Shown here: piece by piece, positions 14,685 through 60,425 of the stretch
Layout: every line of letters starts with the position of its first letter
Position numbering within the stretch: position 1 is the first letter of the stretch
Assembly: GCF_918797505.1 (NCBI RefSeq)
Contig: NC_092802.1
Coordinates: 8,947,480-9,011,479 of the forward strand
DNA: 64,000 bases
From: Bemisia tabaci
Lineage: Eukaryota; Arthropoda; Insecta; Hemiptera; Aleyrodidae
Direction: 5' to 3'
Notes under the pieces: generated by a model
What the model saw: only the letters and a program-made list of their open reading frames with translations
What the model was told of the DNA's origin: nothing
Databases searched by the model: none
Position numbers and translations under genes: made by a program

Positions 14685-17600
14685 TTAGAAGGTGAGGGTG
14701 ACTTTCAAGGTAATGGACGGACAGTTAGGGAAAATTTGGGGGGAGCATTTCTGATTACCTGACCTTCCCAGATGCACCATCGGAAAGATGATGCGTAGTC
14801 CATCTTCATTAACCAATTTTGTGCCAATTGGATCATTTGGGTCCAGAAAAAATGGCAGAATGACACATTTTAAAAATATATCCTCAACATCATAGGCAGT
14901 GACTTTTTTTGAGAGACAGCTGACCTCCTGTATCCCTAGTGATGAACTCACGACAGGATCCTGGTAGAAATCTTCTTTCCTTGAAAAATCAGATCCAATT
15001 ATTTTTGGAGATCCATCTTTCATCGATGAGGCAATGTTCGACAGGAGAATTACTTTGTGGTTACGACTCATGAAACATTGATCCCCTGGTCTTTGTATCG
15101 AGAGGGTAAAATGTGGAAAACGAACTGTACGGTATTGCGGATCTGAAGTTTTCGGAGCTAAGGGGCCTCCTTCGTGAGACATTGAGAAAGATGGTTTGGT
15201 GGAGGTGTCAGCTGCGGTTGGTGTAAAATTGGACTGATCGCGTTCATCGATACGCCTGAAAACTTGCTGCACTGCTTCAGCTGGCTTATTAACTAAAGAG
15301 ACGAGGTAACCCAAGTGGTTTTCAAAGCGAAAAGCCGCTACATTATCGAGCGGACCAAATTTAACAGCATCTTCCGCTAGATGTATAAGCCCATGAACAT
15401 TATGCGATACGTAGTCTTCTCCATAAAGTTCTGCAAACTCAAGAACGAACAGTCGTAACTGTTGATCAGCGAAGGCAATATTCTGTTTATTACAAAGGAC
15501 CTCACTCAAAAGTATTGTGATGGCAGTGTGAAAACGCATGAAGTGTTCATAAGCTTTCGAATTTAATATGTCCTTCAAAACCACAGGTCCTAAATATAAA
15601 ATAAATGCTCGGAATTCTGTTGCCTTCCATTTCCCAACATAGGCCAGAGTTCTTGGGTATTTGGCAAATTCCTGAGGAAACAGCTTCTTGTCATGCAGGT
15701 ATGAGATCCTTTGATTTATTCTTTTCAAGTCATGGTCTGATAATTTAGCGAATTTGTTCTTGTGAGAACCTCTGACCCAAAAATTGACAAGTAATTTCTT
15801 CATTACTCCCAAGCAGATGAGATGTTGATGGTCCAGCACCACTTCGGTTGCAAAATCAATACCGTTGATATCTGCCAGGCAGTTTTCTCCTGAAAAAAAA
15901 CAGTCGTCTGACTTAGCTAACCAATCTTGATGCAGCCTTCTAGCGGAATTTTGGGCTTGGTAAGATCGTCTTTTGCCATAACTTTTGCCCATGACCTTGC
16001 AGCGGGTGCATGAAGAAAAAGCATTGTGGTTATTGATACCCAAAACTAGAGCTTTGGCAGGGGCATCCATACAATAAGCAGCCATTTTTATTTTAACGTG
16101 CTTTCCATTGATTAGAAGGCCTTCCTTATGGAGACGATTGAGCTCTGGAATAAAATCCTTGAAAATGGCTTTAGGATTCTGCAATGTCACGTCCGAGCAG
16201 TACAATGCTGCAGTAAAAACAACATGTTTTTTAGATGGGACATTGAGGAATCCTACCATGATCGGATAAAACTCCTTCTTACCAGATTTGGTCAGTGGAG
16301 CTCCATCAAATCCCATGATAAGCTTTAACTTGGACGGCAAGGTCCTTTCGCTTGCCAAAATTCTATTTAGATTTTCGGCAATTCCAAAGTAATGGTAGTC
16401 ACCGTCAATGATTTTTTCCGACAGAACATCTCTAGGGGTACCTAGGAAGGTTGATGCTGTCTTTGGAAGATGATGCAATGAGGGAACATCTTCTTGCAGT
16501 ATCTTTAGCAGATCCGTAGTGGCAATGTGCGTTATCTTGTGCTTGAACACCCAATTTTTTAATTTCTTTGAAAAACTGGTGGTGGATGAATCATTGACCG
16601 TCTCCGATGTTGATTCATAGGCTTTAGAGAATAATGAAGTGGAAGGAATCTCACGGTTACCAACATCCTCATTTCTTTTGGTAGTGGTTGATGTAGAGGG
16701 TATCCCTCTCGGTTCTTCAGATGTCGGCTTGCCATTTCTCTCGTTGGCACTTGGTTTATTCTTTTTCAACCAATCCAAATATTGCTTGTGGTTAGGCCTT
16801 GCTGGTCGTTTCTTTCTTTTCTTTTTCTTTTCTACTGCCAAGTGAACAGCTGCAAAGGAGAAATGTGTCCTCTGAAGATTTGAGACAGAGGGAGAATGTG
16901 TCCTCTGAAGATTTGAGACAGAGGGAGAGGGAAATTCACAGATTTGCAATGAGGAACTATTAAGCAAAATAATGAAGTGATTACTCTGCGCCAGAAAAAA
17001 AGGGGGAAAAAATCACTTCTTGCATAGCGTAGGAAACTATTGCTGTCATTGTATGTCGTCAGGGGCTGCTGGGTGATGTTTTGTCAATAATTAGAGAGAA
17101 GAGCCGAAGTAAGTGGAAGAAATTGTGTGATCACAATAGTGTTTCCTGACCGGGATATAATTAAGCACAATCTCACTTTCTTCAAATCGATCTAAATTTC
17201 AGGTTTTAAAATCAACACCAGAGCCTGGATTGTTGAATCATTATCGAATGATCGTGATCGATAAACAGCATTCGATAGGGATGTATCGATTATGGTCATT
17301 CGGTAACGATTCAACAATCGGCCTGCTCAGATTGGCACATAAGAGATGTAAAGGAAAATTGCCCACCAGGAGGTTATGGAAAAATAAAATTTGATGAGCT
17401 GTACAATGTTATTCCATGAACAGCAGTTATCAATTGGCCAGGATAAAAGCGATGTAGCAATGCCGAGAGGTACACAGAATTCATCCTCAAGACTGGAAGA
17501 TTCCTCCGTTGGACATATAGGCAGCAAGGCCCCAAAATAAATTGGAATAATTCATAGCAAATACGAAGATTGATGAGTCTGTGCTACGCATGAGTTAGGT

Positions 17601-21794: not shown

Positions 21795-22389
21795 CACCCC
21801 TTTAACACGTCACGTAGACGTCCCTGCTATTTCCGCAAAATACCGAATCATAATGAATAGCCGTGAAACGTCCATCCTTTGTCTCTCATCTCCGCGATAT
21901 CCGATCCGCGTAGCGATCATCCAATGGCCATTCTGCGGACCCTTTGGAAAGGAGTCGCGAATCCGATACTCTCACACGTCCTGAAGGTGTACTGTGATGT
22001 GTCAAAAATCCCTATAAATTAGGGCTAAGTCCGCGGGATATCTATTGGATGTCTCCTGTTTCTGCTCTTTGCAGCGCACATCTGGAAGACGTCCGGCGGA
22101 CGTTACAAAAAAAACTGGGAAATGCAGAAAATTTAAACGTCCGGTAGACGTTCTTCGGATATCCGCTAAATACCGAAATAGTATGAATGTCCGTGGGACG
22201 CCTATTGGATGTCTCTTACTCCCGCGATGAGAAGCGCATATCCGATGGACATCCGACGGACACATCAGGCAGGGGTCGCAAATCCCTAATCTCACACGCT
22301 CTCAAGACGTATCGTGGATATCTCGATAGACCGAGAAATCGGAGCAATGTCCTTGGGACGTCAATTGGATGTCTTAGATTCCTGCTGTA
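21795..22389 (-). repeat. Satellite array, left part (reverse orientation)
   Basis: Almost two ~320-bp units in reverse orientation relative to 1-1620. The outermost unit (21800-21990) is the inverted match of the diverged last unit at 1440-1620. The array is interrupted at 22389 by a 6.5-kb insertion and resumes at 28915. Confidence 0.88.
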
Positions 22390-22744
22390 CTATCGCCGAA
22401 TTTAGTTTCACGCAGAGTCTCTGGTGACTATTTAGCGACGGCGCGGCGCGGCGCGTTGCCTGATAACGCTCTCATGAAGACGCACTGGTTCCTCTGTGAG
22501 CGCGTAGTCACTAACACAGACGCACATGAAACACACACAGACATTTTCACTCATTCACCGTGAGAATTCACGTTTTTGGCTCTTTGGAATGTAAACAAAG
22601 ATTCGTAATGACGTATCGCGCATCGATTCCAATTCTCACTTGCCTCTTGTTCTTGTGACTAGAGCAAGGAAGAAAGGACCTCATTCCAAATTGTCCGTTT
22701 CAACCTTGGCCTGATCTTCGAAATATTTTCAAAGTTGATAGAGG

Positions 22745-27200: not shown

Positions 27201-28914
27201 TCAATAATATAACGGGATTTATAATACCGGTGATTTGGGTATTTTAGCCCCAAAATACCTTTAAATCGACTTTATCTTCTAGGAGTTCGACAGAATTTTT
27301 CCTTTCTTCGCTTAAATTTTTCCGTAGCACTTTTCTTCAAGAATCTGAAAAGATTTTGCTTGAGGCAGATCAAAAAACTTAAATTTGTTCGAATAGCTTT
27401 CTAGATTCACAATACACGGTCTCGTGAAGGTGCGTCGTTGACCTTGCAGTGTTGGATCGTGAATTCTCTTGTTGTGCTGCTTGCCTTTTTTGAAATCTCT
27501 GTAAATGAAAACTAAAGGGGTTGATATGTGCGAGTTAATGACGCGCCTTATCAACACATTGTGTTGGAGTTCACTGCTTGTTTTTTTATATATACTTCTG
27601 ACCAATATTTTGGAAATCCGAAGGTTTATACAAATGCGTATTTTTGGCATCTGAATAAGGGTTTTTTTTGTTGCAAACTCGATCTTTCGGAAAATTAGTG
27701 GGTTGTGGAAAATACAAAGGTCGATTCGGGGTCAGAAGCAAAAAATAAGATATAGTAGCTCAATTATAGCTATCTGAATAAAATGATTTTCTGTCCTTCC
27801 GGACTCAAAACAACGGATCAGTTTTATATAGGATTCGTGGGTGGATAATGCCATTTTGACCGGAAAACTCTCATCAGAAAAAGGGAGACATGTTTTTTGG
27901 ACATGCGGTATGCAATACATGTCTGGCTAGTGTCTATGTATCCTTGGCCCCTAAATTCAAGAATTACTTCGGTTTATCTCGATCATGCATCAATTTCCAG
28001 AAAATCAAATTTTCCTTGGAAAATTCATTTTTAAATAATCCCAATTTGCCTGGAAAATGGCAGAGACAGGGACAAACCGAGGTCATACTTGGACCCAGGG
28101 CTGAATATTACACGAGAATTCGCTAATGAAGCATTCATTTTTTTTTCGGTGTATACTTGTGTAATCTTTCATATTCAACAGCGGACCAGTTTTGCGTCAT
28201 TTTCAAACTTCCTGCGCGAAGAAGTATATCCTGAATTAAGAAGTCCTTTGGAACAAGGGTGTGTGCTCAAAAAGGTAGTTCCGCGGAAATCGCATTTGAA
28301 AGTTCAGAAGTGCATAGCGTTGGTACTAGCCAATATCTTCGCACGAAATTTAATTAGTTTGAAAGAACAAGTCTTTGAGAGTATACTTGCAAAAACGGAA
28401 CATTGTGACTACATTCCCCTATGATCCCTACAAGATAACGTGGATCGTTGTGTAAAAAGGGTGGGGGGGGGGGGGCACGACTTTTTAATACACTATGTAT
28501 ATTTCCTGAAACTAGGAAGAATCCAGTTTCAGAAAACGCGTTCTCCCGAAAAAGGGCGGATGCGCGCATACGCCTTTGTCCCAAAGAACTCCATGTAACC
28601 TGCCGGCACGGCGGTGTCTAGAAGAAAAAAATCAGTTGCACCTCATGAAATTTTAGCTCTATTTTCGAGTGACCGCGGTGTTGCGCTGTCTATTATGGGT
28701 TTGCACCTATAGATGCTTGTCTGAGGGATATTTTCTTGAAAAAGTAGCAGATTTGTCAATTGTTCATGTGCCTCCGTTTTCCTCGTTGGCATGAGATGAG
28801 ATAGGTCCAATCAGCACCCGATATCTCCGAAACGCGCCACGCCGCGCTGCGCCTCGTCGCACAGTTTACATTTGATTTGGAGCGGCCTATGCGTGAAACT
28901 AAATTCGGCGATAG

Positions 28915-31900
28915 TACGTAGCGCACATCCAAAGGACGTCCAGCGGACGTTCTCGAAAAAGAGAAAACTCGAAACAATTTAAACGTCCGGTAGACGTCCT
29001 CTGGATGTCCGCTAAATACCGAAATCGTATGAATGTCCGTGAGACGCCTATTGGATGTCTCTTACTCCTGCGATGTGCACCGCAGACATCCGACGGATAA
29101 ATTAGGCAGGGGCAGCAAATCCCGTAATCTCACACGCCCTCAACACGTACCGTGGATATCTCGATAGACCTAAGAATTGAGGAAATGTCCGTGGGACGTC
29201 CATTGGATGTCATCGATTTCTGCTGTAAGCAGCACACATCCGAAGGACGTCCAGCGGACGTTCTGGAAGAAATGAAAACTCGAAAAAATTTAAACGTCCT
29301 GTAGACGTCCTCCGGATGTCCGCAAAATACTGAATTATTATGAATGTCCGTGTTCCGTCAATTGGATGTCTCTTACTCCCGCTATGTGCAGAGCATATCC
29401 GATTGACATCCGACGGACACATCAAGAAGGGATCGCCACTCCCGTAATCCCACAAGCCCGCGAGACGGACCGTGGATATCTCGGTAGACCTAAGAATTGG
29501 GGAAATGTCCGTGGGACGTCTATTGGATGTTATCGATTTCTGCTGTATGCAGCGCACATCCGAAGGACGTCCAACGGACGTTCTCGAAGAAAAAACTAAA
29601 AAAAATTTAAACGTCCGGTAGACGTCCTCTGGATGTCCGCAAAATACCGACATCGTATGAATGTCCTTAAGACGTCTATCGGATGTCTCTTACTCCCGCG
29701 ATGTGCAGTGCACATCCCATGGACATCCGGCGGACACATTAGGCAGGGGTCGCATATCCCGTTATCTCACACGCCGTCAAGACGTACCGTGGATATCTCG
29801 GTAGACCTAGGAATCGGACCAATGTCCGTGGGACGTCCATTCGATGTCATCGATTTCCGCTGTATGCAGCGCACATCCAAAGGACGTACAGCGGGCGTTC
29901 TCGAAAAAACGAAGACTCCAAAAAATTTAAACGTCCGGTAGACGTCCTCTGGATGTCCACAAAATACTAGATTATTATGATTGTCCGTGGGACGTCAATT
30001 GAATGCCTTTCACTCCCGCGATGTGCAGCGCACATCCGACGGACACATTACAGAGGGGTCGCAAATTCCGTAATCCCACACGCCCGCGAGACGGACCGTG
30101 GATATCTCGATAGCCCGAAGAATCGGAGCAATGTCCTTGGGACGTCCATGGGATGTCTTCTATTCCTGATGTGTGTATCGCACGTCCAAAGGACGTTCAG
30201 CGGACGTTCTCGGAAGAACGAAGACTCCAAAAAATTTAAACGTCCCGTAGACGTCCTTCGGATATCCGCTAAATACCGAAATCGTATGAATGTCCGTAAG
30301 ACGTCTATCGGATGTCTCTTAATCCCGCGATGTGCAGCGCACATCCCATGGACATCCGGCGGAAACATTTGGCAGGGGTCGCAAATCCCGTAATCCCACA
30401 CGCCCGCGAGACGTACCGTGGATATCTGGATAGCCCGAAGAATCGGAGCAATGTCCTTGGGACGTCCATGGGATGTCTTCTATTCCTGGTGTGTGTATCG
30501 CACGTCCAAAGGACGTTCAGCGGACGTTCTCGGAAGAACGAAGACTCCAAAAAATTTAAACGTCCCGTAGACGTCCTTCGGATATCCGCTAAATACCGAA
30601 ATCGTATGAATGTCCGTAAGACGTCTATCGGATGTCTCTTAATCCCGCGATGTGCAGCGCACATCCCATGGACATCCGGCGGAAACATTTGGCAGGGGTC
30701 GCAAATCCCGTAATCCCACACGCCCGCGAGACGTACCGTGGATATCTCGGTAGACCTAGGAATTGGACCAATATCCGTGAGATGTCCATTCGATGTCATC
30801 GATTTCCGCTGTATGCAGCGCACATCCAAAGGACGTACAGCGGACGTTCTCGAAAAAACGAAGACTCCAAAAAATTTAAACGTCCGGTAGACGTCCTCTG
30901 GATGTCCGCAAAATACTAAATTATTACGATTGTCCTTGGGACGTCAAATGGATGTGATTTCACTCCCCCGATGTGCAGCGCACATCCGATGGACATTCGA
31001 CGGACTCATCACAGAGAGGCCGCAAATTCCGTAATCCCACACGCCCGCGAGACGGACCTTGGATATCTCGATAGTCCGAAGAGTCGGAGCAATGTCCTTG
31101 GGACGTCCATTGGATGTCTGCTATTTCTGCTGTGTGTATCGCACATCCAAAAGACGTACAGCGGACGGTCTCGAAACAACGAAGACTTCAAAAAATTTAA
31201 ACGTCCGGTAGACGTCCTTCGGATATCCGCTAAATACCGAAATCGTATGAATGTCCGTAAGACGTCCATCGGCTGTCTCTTTCTCCCGCGACATACAGCG
31301 CACATCCCATTGACATCCGGTGGACACATTAGGTAGGGGTCGCAAATCCCGTAATCTCACACGCCCTCAAGACATACCGTTGATATCTCGGCAGAACTAA
31401 TGATCGGTGACATGTCCGTCGGACGTCTTTTGGATGTCATCAATTTCTGCTGTATGCCGCACACATCCGAAGGACGTCCAGCGGACGTTCTTGAAGAAAT
31501 GAAAACCCCAAAAAATTTAAACTTCCGGTAGACGTCATCCGGATGTCCGCAAAATACTGAATTATTATGAATGTCCATGTTCCGTCAATTGGATGTCTCT
31601 TACTCTAGCTATGTGCAGCGCACATCCGATGGACATCCGGCGGACACATCAGGCAGGGGTCGCAAATGTCGTACTCTCACACGCCCTCAAGACGTACCGT
31701 GTATATCTGGGTAGACCGCGGAATCGGAGCAATGTCCTCTGGACGTCCATCGGATATCTTCGATGTCTGCTGCATGCAGCGCACGTCCGAAGGACGTCCA
31801 GCGGACGTTCCGGAAAAAATGAAAAACCAAAAATAGTTAATCGTCCGGTTTACGTCTTTTGGATATCGGCAAAATTCGGAAATATCACGAATGTTCTTGG

Positions 31901-31975
31901 GACGAATTTTTAATGTCTCCTCTTTCTGCGATATGTAGTGCACTTCCGAGGGATGTCTGAGGGACATTTCAGAAA
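28915..31975 (-). repeat. Satellite array, right part, about 9.5 units (reverse)
   Basis: The block TTTAAACGTCCGGTAGACGT recurs at about 28979, 29290, 29606, 29926, 30238, 30558, 30885, 31198, 31519 and 31838, a spacing of 311-327 bp. The two units covering about 30080-30720 are almost identical, pointing to a recent duplication of exactly one dimer. Other units differ more. The long periodic ORFs in this stretch are by-products of the repeat and have no domain. GACGTC palindromes are kept in most copies. Confidence 0.92.
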
Positions 31976-34145: not shown

Positions 34146-35228
34146 TCAATTCTTTGCCGGGATATTCCCACATTGGACTCGTTGAAAATACCAAAAAGGG
34201 GTGTGGTTCATCATCCAAATTGTAGGTGTAATGAAGACGTATACCGACCGAGGCAACCCTAGGTGCAGCACTCCCGCGCAAGCCGGATTACTCACACCCA
34301 GCGACAGGGCCGACGTACCGAGGAGGACCTCTATCGTTCCGGCAAGCCATTCTCTTAGACGCGTCTCTTTGTCCATGTCAGATGTTCCTGACTCTATCCA
34401 CGTGGACCTAATGTTGTTCGACTCGATAGCTTCAGCGAGCCTTTTAACACCATCCCGCGATTCGAAGAATACGAGGACGTGCTTTAAATCGTCGAAAAGT
34501 TCATTCAAAATATTCGATAGAAGTAACGGCTGCTTGAGTAGGGAATGAATTGTTTGAACCTCCGAAATGGATGTGATATCTACGTAAGAATACTCGATAT
34601 TTGGTCTAATATGTAGATCCGTAATAGTTCTATGAATATTAATGCGGAAAGCCTTTTCGATAAATCTGATATCCAATTCTGCGATGGTTGCAGAGAGCAA
34701 GACAACTTGACACGTCGGTAAGATTTCCGTCCAACTATGGGCCGCCACTAACGAAGGGCGGAACTCCACACCCCAAGTAGGGATGCAATGCGCTTCGTCG
34801 TATACTATGCATTTATCTTCAAACCTGCCTCCGATAAAATTTTTAAAATCATTTAGATTCTGAAGCCGCTCTGCGGTTACGAAAAAAAAAACGCTCCTGC
34901 CTCCATCTAAAATACGGGACACGCTTAACTGTTCGATTTCGCAAAAATCCGTTTCCCTCAAATCGATACATGCTACTACGTCTTTGAGTTTGTTAAACAT
35001 GTCTAACAAGAGGGCCACTAACGGAAGGACGACAATAACTAAGCACTGACGGACCATGAAAGGTGCCACAAAACATAACGTTTTACCGTAGCCTGTAGGA
35101 AAGCGTAAGCACACGTTTTCGTTATTAAAAACGGCTATTATTGCCGCTGTTTGTGTGTGTCGTAAAGAAACTATGGATGCATCGACACGTTGCGCTGCTG
35201 CCAAGAACCTGCAATTGGACACCTCCAA
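34146..35228 (-). pseudogene. RecQ-like helicase, C-terminally truncated
   Basis: The 360-codon frame contains superfamily 2 RecQ motifs in order: a Q-type RHTQ near residue 23, Walker A FPTGYGKT at 43-50, LPLVALL, DEAH at 144-147 (IVYDEAHCIPTWG), LSAT at 178-181, LVFFESRDGVKRLAE, and motif V GTSALSLGVSNP. After LHLGLPRS the sequence diverges and motif VI (Q-x2-GR-x-GR) and the zinc-binding region are missing. The frame then runs into unrelated sequence beside the satellite. It belongs to the same family as the complete helicase at 51681. A GT at the break (TCGGTATAC) could be a splice donor, but I see no downstream exon. It is probably a fragment of a mobile-element helicase rather than a host RecQ. 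Confidence 0.75.
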
Positions 35229-35401
35229 TTGTATGTGTTGTTACATTTGCTATATAAACGCCCTACACCGCACCGGGTGACACCGCAGTTTTTGTCCACA
35301 CATCGCCGCACAGAACTGTCCTTTCGATCACGGAATTCATAAAATGTAGCACCTTCATGCACAATCATAGGGTTACCCCTGTCACTTTCAATTTTAAACA
35401 T
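35171..35401 (-). pseudogene. FLYWCH-like zinc finger fragment
   Basis: The 76-codon frame starts MFKIESDRGNPMIVHEGATF, resembling the start of a FLYWCH finger (Gly-rich lead, Tyr/Phe, then RCVDKNCGVTRC). The usual Trp-Arg-Cys is changed to RRC, and the closing histidines are not visible. It overlaps the helicase frame by 58 bp in another phase on the same strand. It may be an upstream exon of the same mobile gene or an unrelated remnant. Confidence 0.4.
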
Positions 35402-36402: not shown

Positions 36403-37767
36403 TTACTGGTGTCTCAATGAAACCAGCAACACATCCCTCATCTGATTTGAGGTGCTCCGAGTCTTTTCGTGGTTCACTGCGTGGGGATCTTGAATTGAGT
36501 GTGAAAACTCCTTATTTGGTTCTATGGAGAACTCGCTACTCAAGTACCCCAGGAGACGCTTCGCTACAGGGAAGTATTTTGATAAATGCTTGACCCATAT
36601 AAAGTATGCCATATAGGTATCCGGATGACCTCTATACATTAGTGCAGGGAACGGTATGACGGGAAATCCCCCTGCATCCGGTGGAGTTGGTAGAGATAAC
36701 AATTTCAGATCATCATTCCACTCAACACCCTCTGCGGCTAAAAGCTCTTTCAGTCTCTCCTTGTTAGTGGACCCATATCTACATTCTCGGCCAAGGGTAT
36801 TTAATGACTCCAGCATAGAGACCATATATGGGCATATTGCATCAAAACCTTTCATTGTAGCGGCTTGAGCAGATGTTGATATTGCTGCCAATCTGTCTCT
36901 TACAGTTGGATAGATGTCGTTAACATCAGAGTACGTTTTCGACATTTTCTTAAGGGAGCCAGACAGGTAACTTCCGTTGTATATAATGTCTTTTCCATAG
37001 TTTAGTAGGCTAGTTGAGACATAGGTCTCCTCGAGCTTGAGCTCCATGCCGATGCCGTTCATTATCCTTCCCAGATTTACCCAGAAGTTTCCTACGACTT
37101 TATCAACATCAAGTGCATATTTTTGGAGGTACTGGTCTGGAGTGCATGATGGATCCAGGACTGGGATCAGCAGCACCAATACCTGCTTGTCCCCTTGACC
37201 TACAATTACACTGGAAATTCCTGTCTCCGCCATATTCACTACTGAACCAGACGAGATAATGATTGTCCAGAGTTTTTGAATCTGTCCTTCGCATCCTCCC
37301 CCCTGCCCTATGTGAGGAGTTTCAGATTCACAAATGGTACCTGCAGGAATTGTTTCATCACGTTGAGATGTCTTTTTAAGGTACTCAGGTGGTCTAAAGG
37401 GCGAAAATAGGTAGTAGAATGCCTCCTCGAAAAATCTATGTGAGTATGTGAAAAAGTTGTTAGTTCCAAACAACTGGTCTGTGGTGTGGAAACATATATC
37501 TGTTGACTCTTTTCTCCACCGGAGATTGAACTTATTAAAATCTAGTGATATTATGACCTGAGCATATCTGGATGCGTTCACACCCTTGGGGTCTTTCGTT
37601 CCTCCAGTATTGGACAGCAAGACCTTTGTTAATTCTGCATTCGACCATGACATGGTTTGATACGGCATGTATGGAAGGAATGAGTTAGCCACGTTCTTCT
37701 GTGCCATTGAAAAGAAGAATCTTATCTCAGCGCACAACAAGGCATACAGGCGTGATATGATTTTCAA
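36403..37767 (-). pseudogene. Endogenous mononegavirus L (RNA polymerase) fragment
   Basis: The 454-codon frame matches the core of a negative-strand RNA virus L protein. It has the segment before motif A (RLYALLCAEIRFF, LPYMPYQTMS), motif A with SLDFNKFNLRWR, motif B with GGGCEGQIQKLWT at about 156-168, and the motif C region at about 190-195. Motif C reads GDK rather than the usual GDN, so the conserved Asn is replaced. The frame is open to 36403, but the upstream polymerase region is missing: the preceding viral piece (37792-38067) is only about 90 codons long. Integration, deletion and substitution make this a non-functional fossil (EVE). The nearest virus family cannot be named without a search. 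Confidence 0.85.
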
Positions 37768-37791
37768 CTCTTGTTCTTTCGAGTGTGAAAC

Positions 37792-40524: not shown

Positions 40525-40801
40525 CGAGATAGGTGCACCCAGTCAGAGAAAGTGTAAGCTTAGACTTACTTAATTTTGTTCTGTTGACTCACGTACACAC
40601 CTCTCGAAGACTTGAAAAACTCATGCATTCTAAATAATCCCTTGATTGGAATATCACTAATTTGCTCAAAGTGCCTGTATACAATAACTTAATTCAGAAT
40701 TTCAATGTCAGAATCCGATTCCTGACTGCAGTTATCTTGCTGGTTGTTCATATTTTTGTCCTCATGCATGGTGACGTTAACAGTTGAGTGGTTGTTGTAT
40801 A
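40525..40801 (-). repeat. Copy A of a duplicated gene 3' end
   Basis: Nearly identical to parts of 42515-43148. Both contain GATAGGTGCACCCAGTCAGA, GGAATATCACTAATT, TTTGCTCAAAGTGCCTGTAT and the minus-strand coding end NVTMHEDKNMNNQQDNCSQE...EILN with its stop at 40689. Copy A lacks the ~320 bp (about 42694-43012) present in copy B. Its coding sequence is cut upstream by the palindromic element at 40802. Confidence 0.8.
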
Positions 40802-42225
40802 CAGGGTGTTTCAGACCACCCGTACCAGGCCTTTTTCTCGGTTGGTATAGGTCGTACGAAGTCGGAGACCGCGGGGTTGAATAGAGAATTGACCCCAAGG
40901 AATCCGAATTTCGTAGTCCCGAAACCCCCCCACCCCCCCTTGGGGGGTAAAGGGGGGGTCACGATGCTGAAAGTCACGGTTCCCGACCGAATTGCGGATA
41001 GATCGCATCAGAATTGAAAAGCACAGAAAATTTCACGTGGAATTGACCCCTAAAAATCCAAAATCGGACCATCCAAGGCCTAAAAATGACCCCCTAAAGA
41101 GGGGGACAGTACCCCCCTCCATAATTTCTCTTTGGTCTCAAAATTGACGTAAATTCTCCAGAAAAAGACGGTTTCCCAGGTAATCGACCTCGAGAAATCC
41201 AAATTTCATGGTCCCGAAGCTCCTCTAGCCCCCCTTGGGAGGTAAACGGGGGGGCCCAATTTTAAAAATCGGGGCTCCTTTCCGAATCGCAAATTGATTG
41301 CATCCAAATTGAGGAGCAGAACACATTTACATCTTAAGTGACTCCTAAGAGTTCTAATTGACCCCCCTGAACGGCAAAAAGTAACCCCCTGAGGAAGGGG
41401 GCCTTGCCCCCGCCAAAAATTTCTCAGAATTCCTCTTTGGTCGCAAAATTGACGTCGATTCTCCAGAAAAAGACGGTTTCCCATGTAATCGACCCCGAGG
41501 AGCTCAGGGAACATGAAATTTAGAGTCCTCGGGGTCGATTACATGGGAAACCGTCTTTTTCTGGAGAATCGACGTCAATTTTGCGACCAAAGAGGAATTC
41601 TGAGAAATTTTTGGCGGGGGCGAGGCCCCCTTCCTCAGGGGGTTACTTTTTGCCGTTCAGGGGGGTCAATTAGAACTCTTAGGAGTCACTTAAGATGTAA
41701 ATGTGTTCTGCTCCTCAATTTGGATGCAATCAATTTGCGATTCGGAAAGGAGCCCCGATTTTTAAAATTGGGCCCCCCCGTTTACCTCCCAAGGGGGGCT
41801 AGAGGAGCTTCGGGACCATGAAATTTGGATTTCTCGAGGTCGATCACCTGGGAAACCGTCTTTTTCTGGAGAATTTACGTCAATTTTGAGACCAAAGAGA
41901 AATTATGGAGGGGGGTACTGTCCCCCTCTTTAGGGGGTCATTTTTGGGCCTTGGATGGTCCGATTTTGGATTTTTAGGGGTCAATTCCACGTGAAATTTT
42001 CTGTGCTTTTCAATTCTGATGCGATCTATCCGCAATTCGGTCGGGAACCGTGACTTTCAGCATCGTGACCCCCCCTTTACCCCCCAAGGGGGGGTGGGGG
42101 GGTTTCGGGACCACGAAATTCGGATTCCTTGGGGTCAATTCCCTATTCAACCCTGCGGTCTCCGACTTCGTACGACCTATACCAACCGAGAAAAAGGCCT
42201 GGTACGGGTGGTCTGAAACACCCTG
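40802..42225. mobile_element. 1,424-bp near-perfect palindromic element, TA target duplication
   Basis: The left arm runs from CAGGGTGTTTCAGACCACCC at 40802 to about 41501. The right arm is its near-identical inverted copy from about 41526 to 42225, with only scattered mismatches and a spacer of about 24 bp near 41502-41525. TA flanks both sides. The duplicated host segment has the uninterrupted site at about 43146-43149 (GTTGTTGTATACC), confirming the insertion and the TA duplication. The identical 100-codon ORFs on the two arms are mirror products of the palindrome. The ends resemble Tc1/mariner-like termini, and there is no transposase. Confidence 0.9.
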
Positions 42226-42514
42226 TACCTTTTACAATAAATTGATCCAAGCGGCCACTTATAACGTGCTCCAGATCACGGCCAAAATACCGACAAGCCC
42301 GACCTCGAAGTAGCGCCTGGCGAAGGAGGGTCAGGACCTCATACCACCCGCGTCCACTACCACGAAACTCAGCGGGAAACATTTCCTATCACTTTACTCT
42401 TCTCGTAACACGTAAAGACACCCAAAACAGACTGAAGCCGAGAGCTAGCCGTCCTGGGGACAGAGCCGATTCCCGGAGAGAAATATCTGCAACTTCAGCA
42501 ATAAGAGAGCAAAC
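42226..42514. other. Unassigned segment
   Basis: Begins with CCTTTTACAATAAATTGAT, which resembles the flank of the empty copy. It then has GC-richer sequence with no gene I can name. Confidence 0.35.
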
Positions 42515-47501: not shown

Positions 47502-49213
47502 TCTACAGTTAATTTTCTAAGAACGCATGATTTCTTTGGCAGTTCTACCGACGTGGAAACATGAAGAGGAATTTTAGTTCTATTTAATTATGATATGTAT
47601 TACTATAAAAAGAAAATTATTTGTCAAGTGAACCGATTATTTAATAACAGTAAACATTTGTTCCACCTGAACGCCCCCTTTCGAAAGTTATACGAATTAT
47701 AATCGGCGCGGAAGTTCTGCGATAGGGTGGGAATCCTTTTTGCATCGACGTCTGCGGTCCTTGTAAACGGACCAGCAGACACCTTGCTCACAACCCCTCA
47801 CAGAAACTTACTATCAAACCGCATTGTGTGTAACCTTACTTCCATCACTAAATTCCTGGTACTATCCTGTCCCGTAGGTTTATGGTACCAAATGCAATGT
47901 GGAATTAAAATATGTGTAATTTCAAAAAACAACTGTATGCGTGATAATGAACCGCCGTACAGCCAGTGCATGAACAAGTCTTGGCTCCACTTTATTTTAA
48001 TCCTTGTCAAAGCACCGGAGGAGGCTAGCTACGCCCTTATGCTAGCCAAGCGACGACTTGTTTGTTGAAGGTGTTTTCCCACATGCACGCACACGCACGG
48101 GTGTTCCTTTCGCTATTAGTACCCGGTCGAACAGAATGCATCATGACGCTCTGTCAAGTCGCGTGCTACGTGTTTCCGTTCAAGAGTCTCTTAGTTTCAC
48201 TCCTATCAACCGTTTATCTCAAGTGCGATCTTCCCTTTTCACGTTTGAAACTGTCATGGCAGCAGAATATGCCTCCGGAACCACTGCGTATTCCAAGAAG
48301 CAGTCCACTAATTAAATGGAAGAAAACCTTTTTTCAACTAATGTAATTAATATCAGTTTCATCCATGCTTTTCCAGGCTCATCCTAATGAGTAGTTACGC
48401 CCTGATGTCAGCCAAGTGACGATTTAATTAAAAGTAGTTTCAATCAAGACCCACTTCGTATCCGGGAGTTTCTCGGCACGAGAAAAACGAATCTTCCATC
48501 GGATTTTTGTGATTCTGAATAATTTTAAAATGGCGCCCGGAGAAATGGAGAAAACTCGGTATTACGGACGCTTCCGGTTAGGTTCGCATGAACTTGGCCG
48601 CTATTTTGATAGTATACAACATTTCTAACATGTTATGCGAGAAAGTCATTTTTGTTTCAACCAGAAACCTTACTGGACCCCGGGTTCCAGGTTTCGCCTC
48701 AATCCGTCAACAAAAACGGAGTTGTCGAATCACCATTTTGTTGAACTTTGACCGGCCGCTATTTTGTCAAAAATTAAGAATTCGACCTGTGGTTTGCGCC
48801 AAGAAATCTTCTTGTGCCAAAAAGTTTTTTTTCTTCATCTTCTTTCGATCGATGTGTCATAAAGGGGGGGGGGCAGAAGTAGCTAATGTTGATCCACGAA
48901 AATCCCTGAAGTTTCGTCTCAACATATTTGTCAGGTAAAATATCAGTCCGCATCAGAAGGCATTATACTTGTGCCAACCAATTTCCGAAGTTCCCTTCGC
49001 CTATACTGGTCGCAGCGGAAGGAATGGCCCATCTACGAATCTACCAAGACAATTTTCTTCCTTCTTCGTTCCGTAGAGCATGCTTAATTGTTGGGTCGCG
49101 TCGCAATGTACGTGGTTGTCACTAACAAACCTATTATTAACCGTTAGAATCGCTATGCTCTGAGCGGGCAGCCAATTTTTGAATCTGGGACACCCTGTAT
49201 GTCCGTAAAATTA
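47502..49213. other. Intergenic, no gene supported
   Basis: Only shadow-length ORFs. A short diverged repeat (GCTA(C)GCCC...GCCAAG(C/T)GACGA) occurs at about 48025 and 48395. A GGGACACCCTGTATG end near 49190 resembles the outer end of a Tc1/mariner-like element. Confidence 0.4.
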
Positions 49214-49770
49214 CAATGGACCACTATACAAGGTACGAATTTAAGCAATCTGATACGTGTTTCTTATCCAGAATTTCACGTAGAACACGATTAGCGCAAT
49301 GGATATTACTGAAATTAACTCCTAACGAAGATATCAACGTTTTTATTTCACATTGGGCACGAGGAATTTGAACTGCCCGTTCCCAAGAAACTCAAAGCTC
49401 TACGTGAGTCAAGTCGCGCACTAAACGGTTTCAGCAAGCTTCTCAATCGAGCAATGTTCATTTCCCTTCATGTGTTGTTCAAACTAGAAGCAATGTGCTA
49501 TAGCTGAGCCAAAGCGTCAAAACTGAGGTTGCCAGATTTTTAAATCCAATGATGACTGTAATGATAACGTTTAGCGCGTGATGTGTATCACGTGGATCAT
49601 TGAGTTTTCATGAGCGGGTAGTTTGAATTTACGCATCAAGAATCATTGAATATCTTCGTAAGAAGTTGATTTCAGTAATTTTCGTTGTGCGCATCATGTT
49701 CTACGTAAAATTTGGGTTAAGAAACATGAATCAGAATGCTGAAATTCGTACCTTGTCTAGTGGTCCATTG
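49214..49770. mobile_element. 557-bp MITE, TIR CAATGGACCACTA...
   Basis: The left end CAATGGACCACTATACAAGG and the right end (complement of CAATGGACCACTAGACAAGG) are inverted, continuing inward through TGTTTCTTA and TTTCACGTAGAACA. A second copy lies at 59864-60425. It ends 43 bp from the stop of the PrimPol-like gene. Confidence 0.85.
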
Positions 49771-49812
49771 TCATAAACACGAAAGTTGTTTGTCGCATGT
49801 TAATGTATGAAA

Positions 49813-51307
49813 TCACAGAACTTGGTGCCTAAAAAAGTTTCGTCTCTTTGAAACGAGTTCGGTTGTTCCGTTATCGGCACATTTTTCGGCACATTCGTTG
49901 CCGTGATAGGGCGACGCGTTCACCTTGTAGATGAGGTTCCTATCTACGCATGTAAATACGGCTGCTGTCAAATCGGCGTCGTTACCGATAGGCGACACTT
50001 CCACGCACGTGTAGACGGGCCGGTTTTCTCTTTTATTTCTGGGCGGCATCGATGCATCGTTGGAAGTATTGGCTTCTGGTGGATTTATAAACCTCGACGA
50101 ACGACCGGTCGACGTCGTGGGATCGAACGAGTGCATCGGTGCGCTATCGATAACTCGGTGCCGATCGTCTATCAGATGTTCCATTTCCCGGCCGCTGAAA
50201 GGTTCGAGACGCATTCCAATACTTGGCGCCAGCGGGGCACCGGCATCCCCGCAAGCGCCCTTTACTCGTTCCCACATCAAGCCTTCTACGTGTGACGATG
50301 ATTGAACAGTAGGGGCGCACACTCCTACGTTACCCCGCCCCCCTCGAGGATCAACAATCGTGGGTGCTGCGGGCTGTTCATTCACCGTCGGGCGTGGAGG
50401 ACGGAAACAAGGGATTCTCCACTGATCAATGGCGCACTCAGAAATGGAGACGTCGCTCGGTGTTCGAGAAGTTGGATGGCACAACGCTTTGATACATCTG
50501 ATAGGCGATGGGTTCCCGGATACGAAGCGCATTATCCGATGCGGCTCTTGAACTTTCGAGCACAATGGCAACCGGAAGTTTTGTCGGGATTTATAAACCG
50601 AAATGTCCAGAATACATTTTCCATTAGGGAACAATGCCTTCGAAATTGTACCCGAGGTGTCGCTTCCTCTCCGAGACTCGAGTTGGGTGTAAAATCCAGT
50701 AACGCACTTCCTTATTGCAGGCATGTTTAAGAAGTACACCTTCTTTAAGGATATAATGTGGAACGAAATTTTACACCCCCCCTCAACTATCGTCGATTCC
50801 ACGGGAGCATTATGGGATTCTAAATACTCAAAATCAGCCACCTCGTGTACAAGAGAGGGACATAATTCCTTAATGTAGTCGTTCCAACATTGCATCAATA
50901 ACGTCACAGAAGCAAAAGCCATATCCTTAAAGGTCACTTCCGTAGCCGACCATTCTACGTCAAAGTACAATTTTACCGATTTGACAGCCGTCGTAATACA
51001 CTCGTAATAGGCGTAGAAACGATTTCTCGGGATATCAGATATGATATCCGCGAAAAATCTATCCTTACGCTCAATTACGCGGAAAACGCGCTTCCTAGTA
51101 CTAATCTCCACAGAAATGAGCATGCATGCCCATCGGCGACCCAGGGGGGTTAATCGCAACACCTCCGCTTCAACGATAGCCCACTTCTCGTAGGAATGGT
51201 TAAAAATGGAACGGGACAACGTGGCTGTGCCTCTAACGTCACGGATAAGGAGGGGAGTTCTTAGATTTGAGGCTGGTGGGGCAACGAACACACACCTTGA
51301 AGTTTCC
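49813..51307 (-). CDS. PrimPol-like archaeo-eukaryotic primase (AEP)
   Basis: The frame holds all three AEP motifs in PrimPol order. Motif I is KLYFDVEW (Asp-x-Glu, residues about 147-149 of the full frame), motif II is KISFHII (Ser-x-His, about 212-214), and motif III is CILDISVY followed by KSRQNFRLPLCSK, matching the PrimPol VDxxVYTxNRxFRLxxSSK block. A Pro/Ser-rich linker follows, then a Cys/His-containing tail (TCVE, FTCVDRN, HGNECAEKC) that may be a degenerate zinc knuckle. An acceptor TTTCCTTTCAG at 51308 marks the exon start; the frame further upstream is MITE-derived. The upstream exon was not found, so translation may begin inside this exon near residue 93 of that frame (MLISVEIS). 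The gene lies directly downstream of the RecQ-like helicase on the same strand. Known AEPs make primers or extend DNA. A role in element replication is inference. Confidence 0.8.
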
Positions 51308-51374
51308 CTGAAAGGAAAAAAAAAAACCAAAAATAAATACCAAATAAGGGTTGGGGTAAAAAGGTTACCACCTT

Positions 51375-51599
51375 CACTGAAAAAAAGGTTTGTGGTCACA
51401 AACCAGAATTCTGGTTGTATTTCGGAACCAGATTTTCTGGTTGATTTAACCAGAATTACAGTTGACTCAAACAGACGGTTAGTAGAATCAACCAGAAGTC
51501 TGGTTGTGACAACTGTAATTCTGGTTGCATCAACCAGATAATCTGGTTCCGAAATACAACCAGAATTCTGGTTTGTGAGAACAGAACTTTTTTTCAGTG
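51375..51599. mobile_element. 225-bp CACTG MITE, TT target duplication
   Basis: Starts CACTGAAAAAAAGG and ends TTTTTTTCAGTG, with TT on both flanks. The interior is a mirror series of CCAGAATTCTGGTT motifs. It sits between the helicase and primase genes, in the presumed 5' leader or intron of the latter. Confidence 0.92.
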
Positions 51600-51680
51600 T
51601 TTTTCCGCCAGCCTATACAAATATTCACCCGAGAAAGTTCCTCAAATGTCAGAAGAAAAAGGATGCTGTAATATTTGAAC

Positions 51681-53609
51681 TTAGTCGGGCGTCTCTCTTA
51701 TGGTAATATCGTATCTGCTGACGGAAAAAGACGTAGCCCCCCTTAATTTTTTCACGTCGACAGATATTTGTAGCCGGCGCAAGAGAACCAGTGTCGTAAT
51801 TAAGATGAGGCAACTCTGAACTGTTCTCCCTGCTAAAGCTCCAAACTTCTGTAGACGGTGAAGGGACAGCTCTGTAACGGACGCATCTATAATACCCGCT
51901 AGAACCTTGGCCAATAACACAAAACTTCGCATATAAGGGTGAGGCGACCTCTGTATTTCCCTAACGAGCCCTTTCACAATTTCCTCGTCCGAGAATGGAA
52001 ACGGGTCACGTTGCGAGAAATTCTCCTTGCAGGCGACGCAATTGTGACACCGAGTTCTCACGAAGTCACGAACCAGCACATCGCTGGGACGCCAAGTGAA
52101 GTAGGCATATATTAAATAATGAAGGCATCCGAAATTTTGATTCCAAAAACCAAAATTTAGAGATACTTCATTATTGGATATAATCGATTTCATGTCGTAG
52201 TATTTCAGCGATGTGCAGATTTGAAAATAATCGTGAATGCCACTCGTTATCAAGATTGCATCACCCCCCAGGATCCGCCCCCCCCTTCCGCATCTACCAA
52301 CTTCCTGCACATACTCCATAAAGGAAGCTGCCGCTCTATACCCAAGATGAATTACAAAAGAAAGCCGGGGATTATTAATGCCGAGGCTCAAAGCAGACGT
52401 GCTTATCATGAGGGGGGGGTTCCCCTCATTCCACGCACAAACTCGTTGTTTTTTTTGTGCGGGTGATAAACGGGAATGGAAAAACGAGCAAGGAATCCCC
52501 CTTCGTGATAATTCCGCCGCTAGCTTTTCGACCCCCTCCCTGTTGTTTACAAAAATAATCCCAACTCTCCCGTGCAATTCTTTGGATAGGAAATTTTTTT
52601 TGATGTACCGAGCGAGGCTCCCGGGCATGTGCTGGATGCACGTAAGAGACGTAGGGGCGAGGGTTACTGGGTGGAAGGCTGTTTGATACGTAGAGATAGA
52701 AATTGCAGTTCTCAACACTGTGAAATCGAGGATTTTGTATATCCGAACGTTAAGCATCAATTGGACAGGGCCTAGCATGTAGGAAGGAAACGTCGCGGTA
52801 CAGAGCACATAAGTCATATTTGGAATCCCCTCGAGATTCCCTGCGAAGCGCAAGTAGGATTTTCGAAAATCCAACCCCCACGTTACGGCCGTATGAATCT
52901 CGTCGAAAACGAGAAGAGTATCACTACTAGCTAATAATAATGCTTGTAAAAAGTGCGATACTCTGCTATTGTAAAAAAATTTTTCTGGGGTTCCCACGAG
53001 AATAACAGGAAGGGTGTGTCTTTTCAGGACGGTTAGAGCAGTGTCCAGAGATGGCATCTCGTCAACATCATCCCTGGCGTTGATAACGAAAAAACTCGCC
53101 TCTAAGAACAACCTTACCTGCTCCTCTATAAGAGACACCAGGGGGGATATCAAAATAACTAAACTACGTTTACATAATGGGGGAATTAGGAATGTTAAAG
53201 TTTTCCCCCATCCTGTGGGAGCTAGGAGTAGGAGATTTTCCTGCCGCGTACACATTAAAAAATCGACTACTTGGCGCTGGTCGTTGCGTAGGCGTTTCTT
53301 TATGAGACATTCCGCTTCTTCCACTGTCCTATTCATTTCAGGAACAAACAAACAAGAAACATATTGTAAATAAGTAGTCGTAGATCGCTATGAACCCCGT
53401 AAGTTCATTATTCTATTTAACACACAAATCAAAGTTCTGCGGTATTAGTATTTTTTGAGTTCAGTGTCTCTACTTACATTTGGGACGATGCCGATTCGTT
53501 GACATTAAGAAATATTTCATCATCAGATGAATGGGAAACAATACGCGAATAAGAATCAGAGGCCTGTTGTGGTGGGGTGGGAACTCCGGATCCGGATGGT
53601 GGGTTGCTC
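51681..53609 (-). CDS. RecQ-like DNA helicase, two visible exons
   Basis: Exon 53609-53478 (acceptor after a T tract, frame SNPPSGSGVPTPPQQ..., donor GTAAGT) joins in phase to exon 53328-51681 (acceptor GAATAG). The main exon has Walker A APTGWGKT (residues about 44-51 of the open frame), DEIH at 150-153 (VFDEIHTAVTWG), CTAT at 184-187, IIFVNNREGVEKL, motif V STSALSLGINNP and motif VI QEVGRCGRGG. A RecQ zinc region follows: one Cys before LHYLIYAYF, then C-x2-C-x2-C in RTRCHNCVACKEN. A C-terminal extension of about 110 residues has no HRDC domain I can see. The frame is intact. Family members unwind DNA 3' to 5'. Its pairing with a primase gene and a related helicase copy at 34146 suggest a mobile-element gene, not the host RecQ. 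Confidence 0.88.
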
Positions 53610-54003
53610 CTAAAAAAAAAAAAAAACATTTCTTAATAATGCTATCAGGGTGCACTTCTAATCTAAAGGGTGTTCTCCTTATGGAACTAGTAAATAAACG
53701 CCTGCATCTATTACTTAAAAAAGGTGACATTTTCGTAATTTTTAGAAAGAGCGGTTTCGCTATTTACAATGGTCAGAAAAGACATCTGCATTCAGCTCCT
53801 CGTTGATACAAAAAACCCCCAGTCCCAACCGGTTTTGCTTACGTGGGAAAGTATGTACTCGAAAAGACGTCTCAAATAGTCGTCTGTGTTACAAAAGATA
53901 AGTTTACACAATAAAAATTATATTTTTACAATGACCATGTTCTCAAAAAGGAACAGAAAAAACCATAAAGGGGGGGGGGGTTTTCAGATTAGAGTTTTTG
54001 ACA

Positions 54004-54418
54004 CACTGAAAAAAAATTCTCGGCATATTTACCAAGGTCCATTGGTAAGTTTACCATCTCACTATTTTCATCAATTATTGGTAATGTTACGAAGATAGAC
54101 TGGTAAACTTACCTAAAAACTGGCATTTTTACTGGTTTTTTTCAGGTAAGAATACCACTTTTATTGGTAATCAATTCCCGGTAACTTTACAATTTTATCT
54201 CGGTAATTCTACCACAGTCGATACAAATCTTGGCGTTTTTACAAAAGTCCATCGGTAAATTTGCCTTATGACCAATTATTTTTACCGAGCTTTCTCGGTA
54301 AAATTACCAATACCATAAATGGTAATTTTACCAAGAAGAAACAGGGATCAAATAGAGCCCTGAATTCTTGGTAATTTTACCCTTTCCTTGGTAAATACAC
54401 CGAGATTTTTTTTCAGTG
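54004..54418. mobile_element. 415-bp CACTG MITE, CA target duplication
   Basis: Starts CACTGAAAAAAAATTCTCGG and ends GAGATTTTTTTTCAGTG, with CA on both flanks. The interior is built of many GGTAA(A/T)TTTACC motifs on both strands. It lies between the disordered-protein ORF and the helicase first exon. Confidence 0.92.
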
Positions 54419-55604: not shown

Positions 55605-56340
55605 GGGACGAAAAGAAAATAAAAGCCATGAAAGAGCTGGAAACGCCCACAACAGTAAAAGACGTGTGTTCAGTCTTGGCGATGGCGGGATTTTACCGAA
55701 ATCACATACCAAAACTGGCGGAAATAAGCAGTCCACTCATCAACATAACCAGAAAAACGTGAAATTCGAATTCGATCGGGAGTGCAAACTCGCGTTTGAA
55801 AAAATCATAACATTGTTGGCGTCAGCACCTTTATTAGCACATTATGATCCAGAAAATACAACCTTGGAATTACATTCTGACGCATCAAATCTGGCGATCT
55901 CAAGTGTCCTGAATCAAAGGTACAAAAACGGCGACTTAAGACCTCTAGGATACATGTCGAGAGTCTTAAGCTCCCCAGAAAAATCTTGGAGCGTGCCCGA
56001 ACGAGAACTTTTGGCCATCACTTATGGATTAGACAAATTTCGGCCTTTCTTATGGAATACGAAGTTTAAAATCATCACTGACAGTCAAGGGCTAGTATGT
56101 GTCAACAAGATGGAAGTGCCATCCATGAAAATATCGAAACTAGCACTGAAACTATCCGAATTTCAGTTTGACGTGATCCACAAGAAAGGAAAATACAACG
56201 TCGTTCCAGATTACTTATGCAGATACACAGTCAACAACGTACACAGCACAAACAAAAGCGCAGATGTCTCAAAACCGGAAGAAATTAACCCAACAATTAA
56301 CTTCTCTGAGGAACAGAAAAAGGACAAACAGTTGGTTTAA
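55605..56340 (+). pseudogene. Ty3/gypsy retrotransposon fragment (RT end and RNase H)
   Basis: The + strand encodes the end of a reverse transcriptase (KELETPTTVKDV, MAGFYRNHIPKLAEIS) and an RNase H domain (LELHSDASNLAISSVL, ERELLAITYGLDKF, ITDSQGLVCV, then YNVVPDYLCR). A one-base deletion in the AGAAAAACGTGAA run near 55755 splits the frame between the two parts. There is no catalytic YxDD box, protease, integrase or LTR. It is truncated at both ends and abuts the disordered-protein ORF on the opposite strand. Confidence 0.9.
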
Positions 56341-56700: not shown

Positions 56701-57054
56701 AAAGTTAGACACACTGATACTGCGTCCGTAGGGGTGGACCAGGTTTAATGGACTCAACTCGATCGCTTAGATTTTCCCAATAATCTCCAATATTCTCTCT
56801 GTCCCCTAAGAACTTTTTTTCCTATTTGGAAAATGCATTCGCGCTCTCCATGCCTGTCTGAATTATGGCACGTAACTTCGAAGAGCAGTGTTCTACTGAG
56901 TCGCCCCACTGCTATCCATGCTATTTTCGCCAAAAGTGGCAGCCAACTTTCGGCTTCACTTCCAACGTGTAAAACGAACAACATTTTGGTTGAAAGCAAC
57001 TGAAAATCCTATCTTTCGGAGCTTTAAGTAAGCTCACTTTGTGTCGAAGTCCAT

Positions 57055-57375
57055 CTTGCAGGGTGGCTATCGACCGGGAAAAGTCAGGGAATGCAAATCG
57101 ACCAGGGAAAGTCGGGGAATGCAAATCGACCGGGAAAGTCGGGGAATGCAACTCGACCGGGAAGAGTCGGGGAATACTACTCGACCGGGAAGAAACAGGG
57201 AGTTTAACTCGACCGGGAAAAATCAGGGAATGCAACTCGGCCGGGAAAAGTCAGGGAATGATACTCGACCGGGAAAATTCAGGGAATGCAACTCGATCGG
57301 GAAAAGTCGGGGAGTTAAACTGGACCGGGAAAAGTCAGGGAATGCAAGTCGACCTGGGAAAATCTGGGTAAAGTC
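57055..57375. repeat. 27-28-bp minisatellite, about 11 copies
   Basis: The unit CGACCGGGAAAAGTCAGGGA plus ATGCAACT is repeated from 57068 to about 57360, with small substitutions and one-base length changes. Two frames stay open through it (RPGKVGEC-like repeats), but this reflects the near-multiple-of-three period, not a gene. Confidence 0.9.
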
Positions 57376-59820: not shown

Positions 59821-59863
59821 TCTTATCGGTGACATAATGCCAATGACTCTTCTAGTTAATATA

Positions 59864-60425
59864 CAATAAACCATTAGACAAGGTACGAATTTAAGCATTC
59901 CACTACATGTTTATTAACCAGAATTTCACGTAAAACACGGTTCGCGCAACGAAAATTACTGAAATAAACTTCTAACGAAGATATTAACGTTTTAATTTCA
60001 CATCGGTCACGAGGAATCTGAACTGCCCGCTCACAAGAAACCCAAAGCTCTAGGTCTTTGAGTCCAATCGCGCACTACAACGGTTTCAGCAAGCTTCTCA
60101 ATCGAGCAGTGTTTATTTCCCACCATGTGTGGTTCAAACCATGAGCAATTTGTTATAGCTGAGCCAAAGCGTCAAGATTGAGGTTTTCAGATTTTTATAT
60201 TGCAGAGACTGTCATGATAAACGTTTAGCGCGCGATGTGAATCACGTAAAGTATTGAGTCTTCATGAGCGGGTGGTTTGAATTCACGCATCAAGAATCAT
60301 TAAATATCTTCGTAAGGAGTTGATTTCGGTAATTTTCGCCGTGCGTATTGTGTTCTACGTGAAATTTTGGTTAAGAAACATGTATCAGAATTCTGAAATT
60401 TGTATCTTGTCTAGTAGTTTATTCT
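59864..60425. mobile_element. Second copy of the ~560-bp CAATGGACCACTA MITE
   Basis: Ends CAATAAACCATTAGACAAGG and the complement of GAATAAACTACTAGACAAG. The interior is homologous to 49214-49770 throughout. It lies between the two copies of the UGT 3' segment. Confidence 0.85.

Follow-up and report, generated by a model that had tools for sequence, protein, structure and literature searches.

A RecQ helicase and PrimPol-type primase gene pair recurs in the whitefly genome and is best read as the replication module of a mobile or virus-derived element not described before

A helicase-primase gene pair is repeated in the genome of the whitefly Bemisia tabaci, with many copies in decay and a few that can still be read. 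Both enzymes, their pairing and order, a common exon phase, constraint, and many dispersed decayed copies were observed directly. Pairing, order and protein-level constraint are well supported, and a selfish origin of the RecQ-PrimPol loci is likely. Dispersed, often broken copies combined with protein-level constraint fit a mobile or virus-derived replicon. In our best reading, the pair is the replication module of such an element, one that has not been described before. The copy analyzed here lies in a stretch of 64,000 nucleotides (referred to as the window), which corresponds to C10:8947480-9011479 in the 610-Mb assembly. We are inclined to regard the RecQ and PrimPol genes of the window as one damaged copy of this module, from a selfish element not previously described.

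The RecQ helicase gene of the window (family A) lies in an open reading frame at 51681-53387 on the minus strand. The exon itself spans 51681..53328 (acceptor AG/GACAGTGG), and it is open and ends with a stop codon. The translated frame matched Pfam DEAD (2.4e-19) and Helicase_C (8e-16) as well as NCBIfam recQ_fam (5.4e-44; 150.8 bits, under the curated cut-off of 219.8), and an SF2 helicase core with these matches showed that the RecQ gene named in the preliminary description is real. The Pfam match to the RQC domain was weak (E 0.28, 11.4 bits versus a cut-off of 23). In the protein database, the two nearest relatives were a Bemisia protein (61% identical) and a protein piece (63% identical), the latter 99% identical to the locus at C5:25.00 Mb; the next relative was 28% identical. 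Another helicase of the same family had been placed at 34146. The sequence there (34146..35240, minus strand; Pfam DEAD and Helicase_C) is indeed RecQ kin, but it is what remains, in shortened form, of a gene from a second RecQ family, family B; it is cut off before motif VI and matches the RecQ at C7:5.38 Mb at 72% over 334 aa.

We identify the second protein as a PrimPol-type (AEP/UL52) primase from three motifs and from its relatives. Its exon (family A; 49813..51307, minus strand; acceptor TTTCAG/GGAAACT) is open and has no zinc knuckle, and the exon translation is identical to an NCBI-annotated Bemisia tabaci protein. In the open reading frame at 49813-51612 on the minus strand we read LYFDVEW, KISFH and LDISVYKSRQNFRL, whose residues we take to be AEP motifs I to III; all three PrimPol motifs listed earlier are therefore present (YFDVE, ISFH and LDISVYKSRQNFRL). 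When both proteins were compared with profiles, RecQ was matched directly, whereas the window PrimPol alone gave no Pfam match and no credible PDB match and was identified through its relatives. In the protein database, PrimPol-A found its own Bemisia entry and a piece of 210 aa. The predicted structure of PrimPol had a pLDDT of 32, too low for use.

The relatives of the window PrimPol provided the profile matches. Two longer PrimPol-A copies, at C10:20.56 Mb and C9:27.04 Mb, terminate in SRQC...H...CH...C, and they scored 22.5 bits and, just below the Pfam cut-off of 21, 20.4 bits, respectively, against Herpes_UL52 (PF03121). A distant PrimPol family, family B, was first met behind another RecQ at C1:76.38 Mb. 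Among three family-B members tested, the member at C7:5.38 Mb scored 23.0 bits against PF03121, above the cut-off of 21, and the frames of loci L048 and L051 gave no match, one of these two being interrupted ahead of the knuckle region. The family-B profile matched the PrimPol structures 7jk1 and 5l2x ('DNA-directed primase/polymerase protein') with an E value of 3.7e-4 over 51 positions around motif I; single PrimPol sequences used as queries gave no match to PrimPol structures. The profiles of families A and B aligned with each other across motifs I to III (hhalign probability 94.5, E 7.8e-8). No relative was present in the viral contigs scanned or in the prokaryote contigs scanned.

The annotated protein, P0002, is assembled from 57054-57038, 53609-53478 and 51307-49813, so that the RecQ exon is skipped. 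Exon 1 (57038..57054, minus strand) encodes the N-terminus MDFDTK, is followed by a GTGAGC donor, and is not shared with the near-identical copy at C9:31.54 Mb, whose similarity ends at 53871. A 28-bp tandem array of 10.5 copies (window 57070-57362) ends 16 bases from this exon. The shared leader, exon 2 (53478..53609, minus strand), encodes the acidic, disordered residues 7-50 of P0002 and ends at AT/GTAAGTAG. The RecQ exon start at 53328 has the same phase as the PrimPol exon. Since P0002 links the leader directly to the PrimPol exon and both exons fit the leader in one phase, RecQ and PrimPol seem to be encoded by alternative 3' exons belonging to one unit. The two adjacent minus-strand genes of the preliminary description are both real, but they appear to stand as alternatives behind one leader. 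The junctions that it had given, 53478, 53328 and 51308, were correct to within one base: 53478 and 51308 agree with P0002, and the RecQ exon start 53328 is in the same phase. The PrimPol form is annotated as P0002, and the RecQ form behind the leader is a splice form predicted from the sequence.

Other loci have the same arrangement. The leaders ahead of RecQ at C9:27.04 Mb and C1:76.39 Mb carry the same donor, AT/GTAAGTAG, and the acceptor of the C9:27.04 Mb PrimPol matches the leader donor. With the site at the homologous place chosen in several cases that had more than one candidate site, and with three PrimPol-A copies near-identical to one another included, the common phase was found in 18 of 22 exon starts (RecQ-A, 3/3; PrimPol-A, 7/8; third gene, 4/4; family B, 4/7). 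The four misses were the PrimPol-A exon at C10:20.71, both exons at C1:76.38 Mb and the family-B RecQ in the window.

Searches of the whole genome gave at least 62 matches for RecQ (77 of 105 candidates scored), 31 for PrimPol-A (39 of 39 scored), and 70 (107 of 107 scored) and 66 (99 of 99 scored) for two PrimPol-B queries. The matches were located on contigs C1 to C10 and C75, and merging within 3 kb produced at least 53 RecQ clusters and 88 PrimPol clusters. A PrimPol lay within 6 kb downstream on the same strand in 18 of the 53 RecQ clusters scored, a count that includes both the window pair and its near-identical counterpart at C9:31.54 Mb; one PrimPol lay upstream and one on the opposite strand. 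The other 35 clusters had no PrimPol within 6 kb downstream, and some of them are perhaps host RecQ genes. When one PrimPol-B search only was used, the count was 19 downstream, 1 upstream and 0 opposite, with 0.02 expected under uniform placement. Because one C75 locus is 96% identical to C10:9.33 Mb, contig C75 was left out of a circular-shift control in which the sizes of three contigs were estimated; the 15 pairs that remained compare with none in 4,814 of 5,000 shifts and with no more than 4 in any single shift. Neither gene is single-copy, and the pair recurs far above chance in this genome; on the refuting condition set in the preliminary description, these counts favor its reading. The copies are also strongly clumped, as would equally result from local duplication: 102 of the 120 merged loci lie no more than 500 kb from another one.

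Within this one genome, about 75-80% of residues differ between the two families, and RecQ and PrimPol diverge between them in parallel, a pattern that we read as joint inheritance. Over five loci, the pairwise identities of RecQ and those of PrimPol were correlated with an r of 0.96, and 3 of 120 label permutations were as high. The dN/dS values of eight PrimPol-A sequences, which are rough, were obtained for the 26 of 28 pairs that were long enough: the 17 pairs with finite dS gave 0.05-0.29 in 16 cases and 0.56 in one, and the other 9 of the 26 were saturated. At C7:5.38 Mb, the RecQ and PrimPol frames are both open (525 and 379 aa), with a zinc knuckle.

At C10:20.57, C9:31.54, C6:39.28 and C9:4.83 Mb there is a third open reading frame, roughly 205 aa long, less than 2 kb downstream of PrimPol, and at two loci it is followed by a short ATG exon. 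Six matches to this gene were found in total, the two weaker ones having no listed PrimPol match within 6 kb. At C9:4.83 Mb the frame shifts a few codons past the acceptor. No relative of the third-gene protein was recognized: it gave no PDB match, one chance match in Pfam (0.26) and one match in PHROG (0.073), and its predicted structure had a pLDDT of 35, too low for use. The third gene was not found in the window.

The window copy itself is damaged. Its PrimPol departs from the alignment of all other copies at 49894-49896, just ahead of the zinc knuckle, and the window PrimPol is thus without the knuckle; Pfam gave no PF03121 match in it. An inverted-repeat transposon (49209..49775; second copy at 59858-60415) adjoins the PrimPol end, and a palindromic MITE-like insertion (51375..51599; CACTGAAAAAAA ends, inverted arms 86-90%) separates the RecQ and PrimPol exons; neither is part of the module. 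A second MITE-like insertion, at 54004-54418, has the same CACTGAAAAAAA ends. A family-B PrimPol relic covering the motif III region, with a stop, is located at 49004..49186 on the minus strand; it matches L048:940-1983 at 56% over 61 aa and was also recovered in the genome search.

The disordered RGR protein noted upstream was rejected as a part of the element: the genome holds one full copy, six of seven other matches cover only residues 1-60, and the seventh is weak (E 1.6e-4, residues 280-358). Its frame is partly overlapped, on the opposite strand, by an LTR-retrotransposon RNase H fragment (55606-56340, plus strand; Pfam 9.6e-27). Elsewhere in the window we noted a Mononegavirales L polymerase remnant, an endogenous RNA-virus element (36403-37791, minus strand; Pfam E 1.8e-71), and a near-perfect palindrome of 1.43 kb that is 98% identical to its own reverse complement (40800-42227). 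Arrays of a repeat unit of about 320 bases, common to all three places and 75-90% alike, occupy 1-1617, 21801-22390 and 28914-31932. A 775-aa open frame (14685-17012, minus strand) with below-cut-off matches to DUF1258 and DUF4218 looks transposase-derived.

A single dispersed pair of copies looks fresh. Its loci, at C9:27.04 and C1:76.39 Mb on different chromosomes, share stretches that are 96-98% identical and include the leader exon. This is a partial copy, and the shared stretches have no boundary repeats and no target-site duplication. The copy at C9:31.54 Mb is 99.94% identical to the window over 50520-53871 and 81% identical, with 66 gap positions, over 49896-50519; no defined ends and no target-site duplication were found at the boundaries of this pair. 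Flank alignment, which had been expected to reveal shared termini, gave none at these two copy pairs. Beside the 99.94% identity, the C9 copy has dense small indels (C9:31542824-31543448), possibly unpolished assembly. Because part of it looks unpolished, we did not accept this copy as proof of recent transposition, and its near-identity to the window may be an assembly effect. On the other hand, the C9 copy runs on into the part that encodes the zinc knuckle, then into a third gene with an open frame, and a real locus is therefore probable.

No transposase, integrase or recombinase was recognized in the frames read around the modules, some of which were tested with Pfam, in agreement with the earlier remark that no integrase or recombinase was recognized nearby; none of the module proteins tested gave a Pfam transposase match. 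A piggyBac-like element lies at C9:31531156-31535468, and its transposase-like frame of 738 aa is open. The element was rejected as the mobility gene of that locus, as its own TTAA and CCCTTACCTGC ends enclose the transposase alone. A 2107-aa open frame on the same contig (C9:31515002-31521322, plus strand) reads by eye as a Gypsy-type polyprotein whose C-terminal part resembles a helicase; a second long frame comes after it.

Three other explanations were weighed. The pair could be cargo of a known transposon, such as a Kolobok or piggyBac carrying a helicase and a primase, and a piggyBac does lie about 5 kb beyond the third gene at C9:31.53 Mb. However, that piggyBac is self-contained, with ends around its transposase only, and the flanks read at other modules showed no transposase (some frames by Pfam). 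A RecQ is encoded by fungal KolobokH, according to the accessible text of PMC9587614, but we consider the cargo explanation very improbable. It is also unlikely, if less so, that the loci are a family of host genes in the whitefly, derived from an old RecQ-PrimPol pair duplicated locally and between chromosomes and now serving the insect in repair, defence or programmed DNA change. The low dN/dS, the conserved exon phase, the annotation of P0002 as a host protein, and clumping as seen in gene families all agree with a host function. A host family is harder to reconcile with copies that are often broken or short (stops, partial matches) and located among transposons, and with families about 75-80% different in residues within one genome.

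The most serious alternative, although still an unlikely one, is that the loci are endogenised remains of an undescribed nuclear DNA virus lineage with its own RecQ and UL52-type primase. The clumped, broken and highly divergent copies would then be past integrations and local duplications, and nothing would transpose today. The UL52-type zinc knuckle in the copies and their strong clumping are consistent with a viral source, and the window's own remnant of an RNA-virus polymerase is evidence that sequences of viral origin build up in this region. In contrast, no polymerase, capsid or packaging gene was recognized in the flanking open frames, read by eye and in part also by Pfam, and the viral-contig scans were without a relative. 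Prior to 2025 whiteflies had no known insect DNA virus, as far as the accessible text of PMC12297876 states.

For the undescribed mobile or virus-derived element that we favor, we infer the RecQ splice form, replication and mobility. In the proposed mechanism, a single transcription unit would have a short leader exon spliced either to the RecQ helicase exon or to the PrimPol exon, and in other copies the leader is probably also spliced to a third exon. The RecQ helicase would open the DNA of the element, PrimPol would lay primers and perhaps extend them, and their action would yield additional copies of the element. These might re-enter chromosomes via end joining of extrachromosomal copies or via an enzyme not recognized here. 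Of the preliminary idea that the pair drives replication of a large element, the multi-copy, co-occurring and constrained nature of the pair stands, whereas the analysis turned up no ends, no target-site duplications, no integrase and no transposition event.

Taken further, and only tentatively, the loci could represent a new class of eukaryotic self-replicating mobile element. It would express RecQ and PrimPol from one transcription unit via alternative 3' exons, have a third conserved protein and no known transposase, and have diversified for a long time in the whitefly lineage, some doubly open copies maybe still acting. To our knowledge, known eukaryotic transposons rely on host replication or carry their own polymerase. 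If the reading is correct, a chromosomal element based on a helicase-primase pair would be a new replication route for selfish DNA, would give PrimPol a setting beyond host repair and the known viruses, and would provide a test case for replication-gene exchange between transposons and DNA viruses. A search of titles and the beginnings of abstracts, in a collection that holds neither most subscription papers nor Repbase, returned no paper on a RecQ-PrimPol element.

Among known systems, Polinton/Maverick elements are comparable in concept, as transposons that bring along an enzyme for their own replication. They use a protein-primed PolB and an integrase, whereas neither was recognized in the whitefly module frames read. 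KolobokH of fungi, which combines a DDE transposase with RecQ, resembles the module as a eukaryotic repeated element with RecQ (PMC9587614, accessible text), but the whitefly module has PrimPol and an animal host, and no DDE transposase was recognized in it. Teratorn, a piggyBac-herpesvirus fusion of fish, is likewise a chromosomal element with a herpes-type primase and helicase (PMC6431247 and PMC10175614, accessible text); the whitefly helicase, in contrast, is RecQ-type, and no herpesvirus structural gene or enclosing piggyBac was found. With eukaryotic PrimPol and herpesvirus UL52 primases the whitefly protein shares the catalytic motifs in order, the UL52 knuckle in intact copies and the profile match to PrimPol structures. 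It differs from them, apart from the missing knuckle of the window copy, in that the whitefly primase is multi-copy, paired with RecQ and placed behind a common leader exon.
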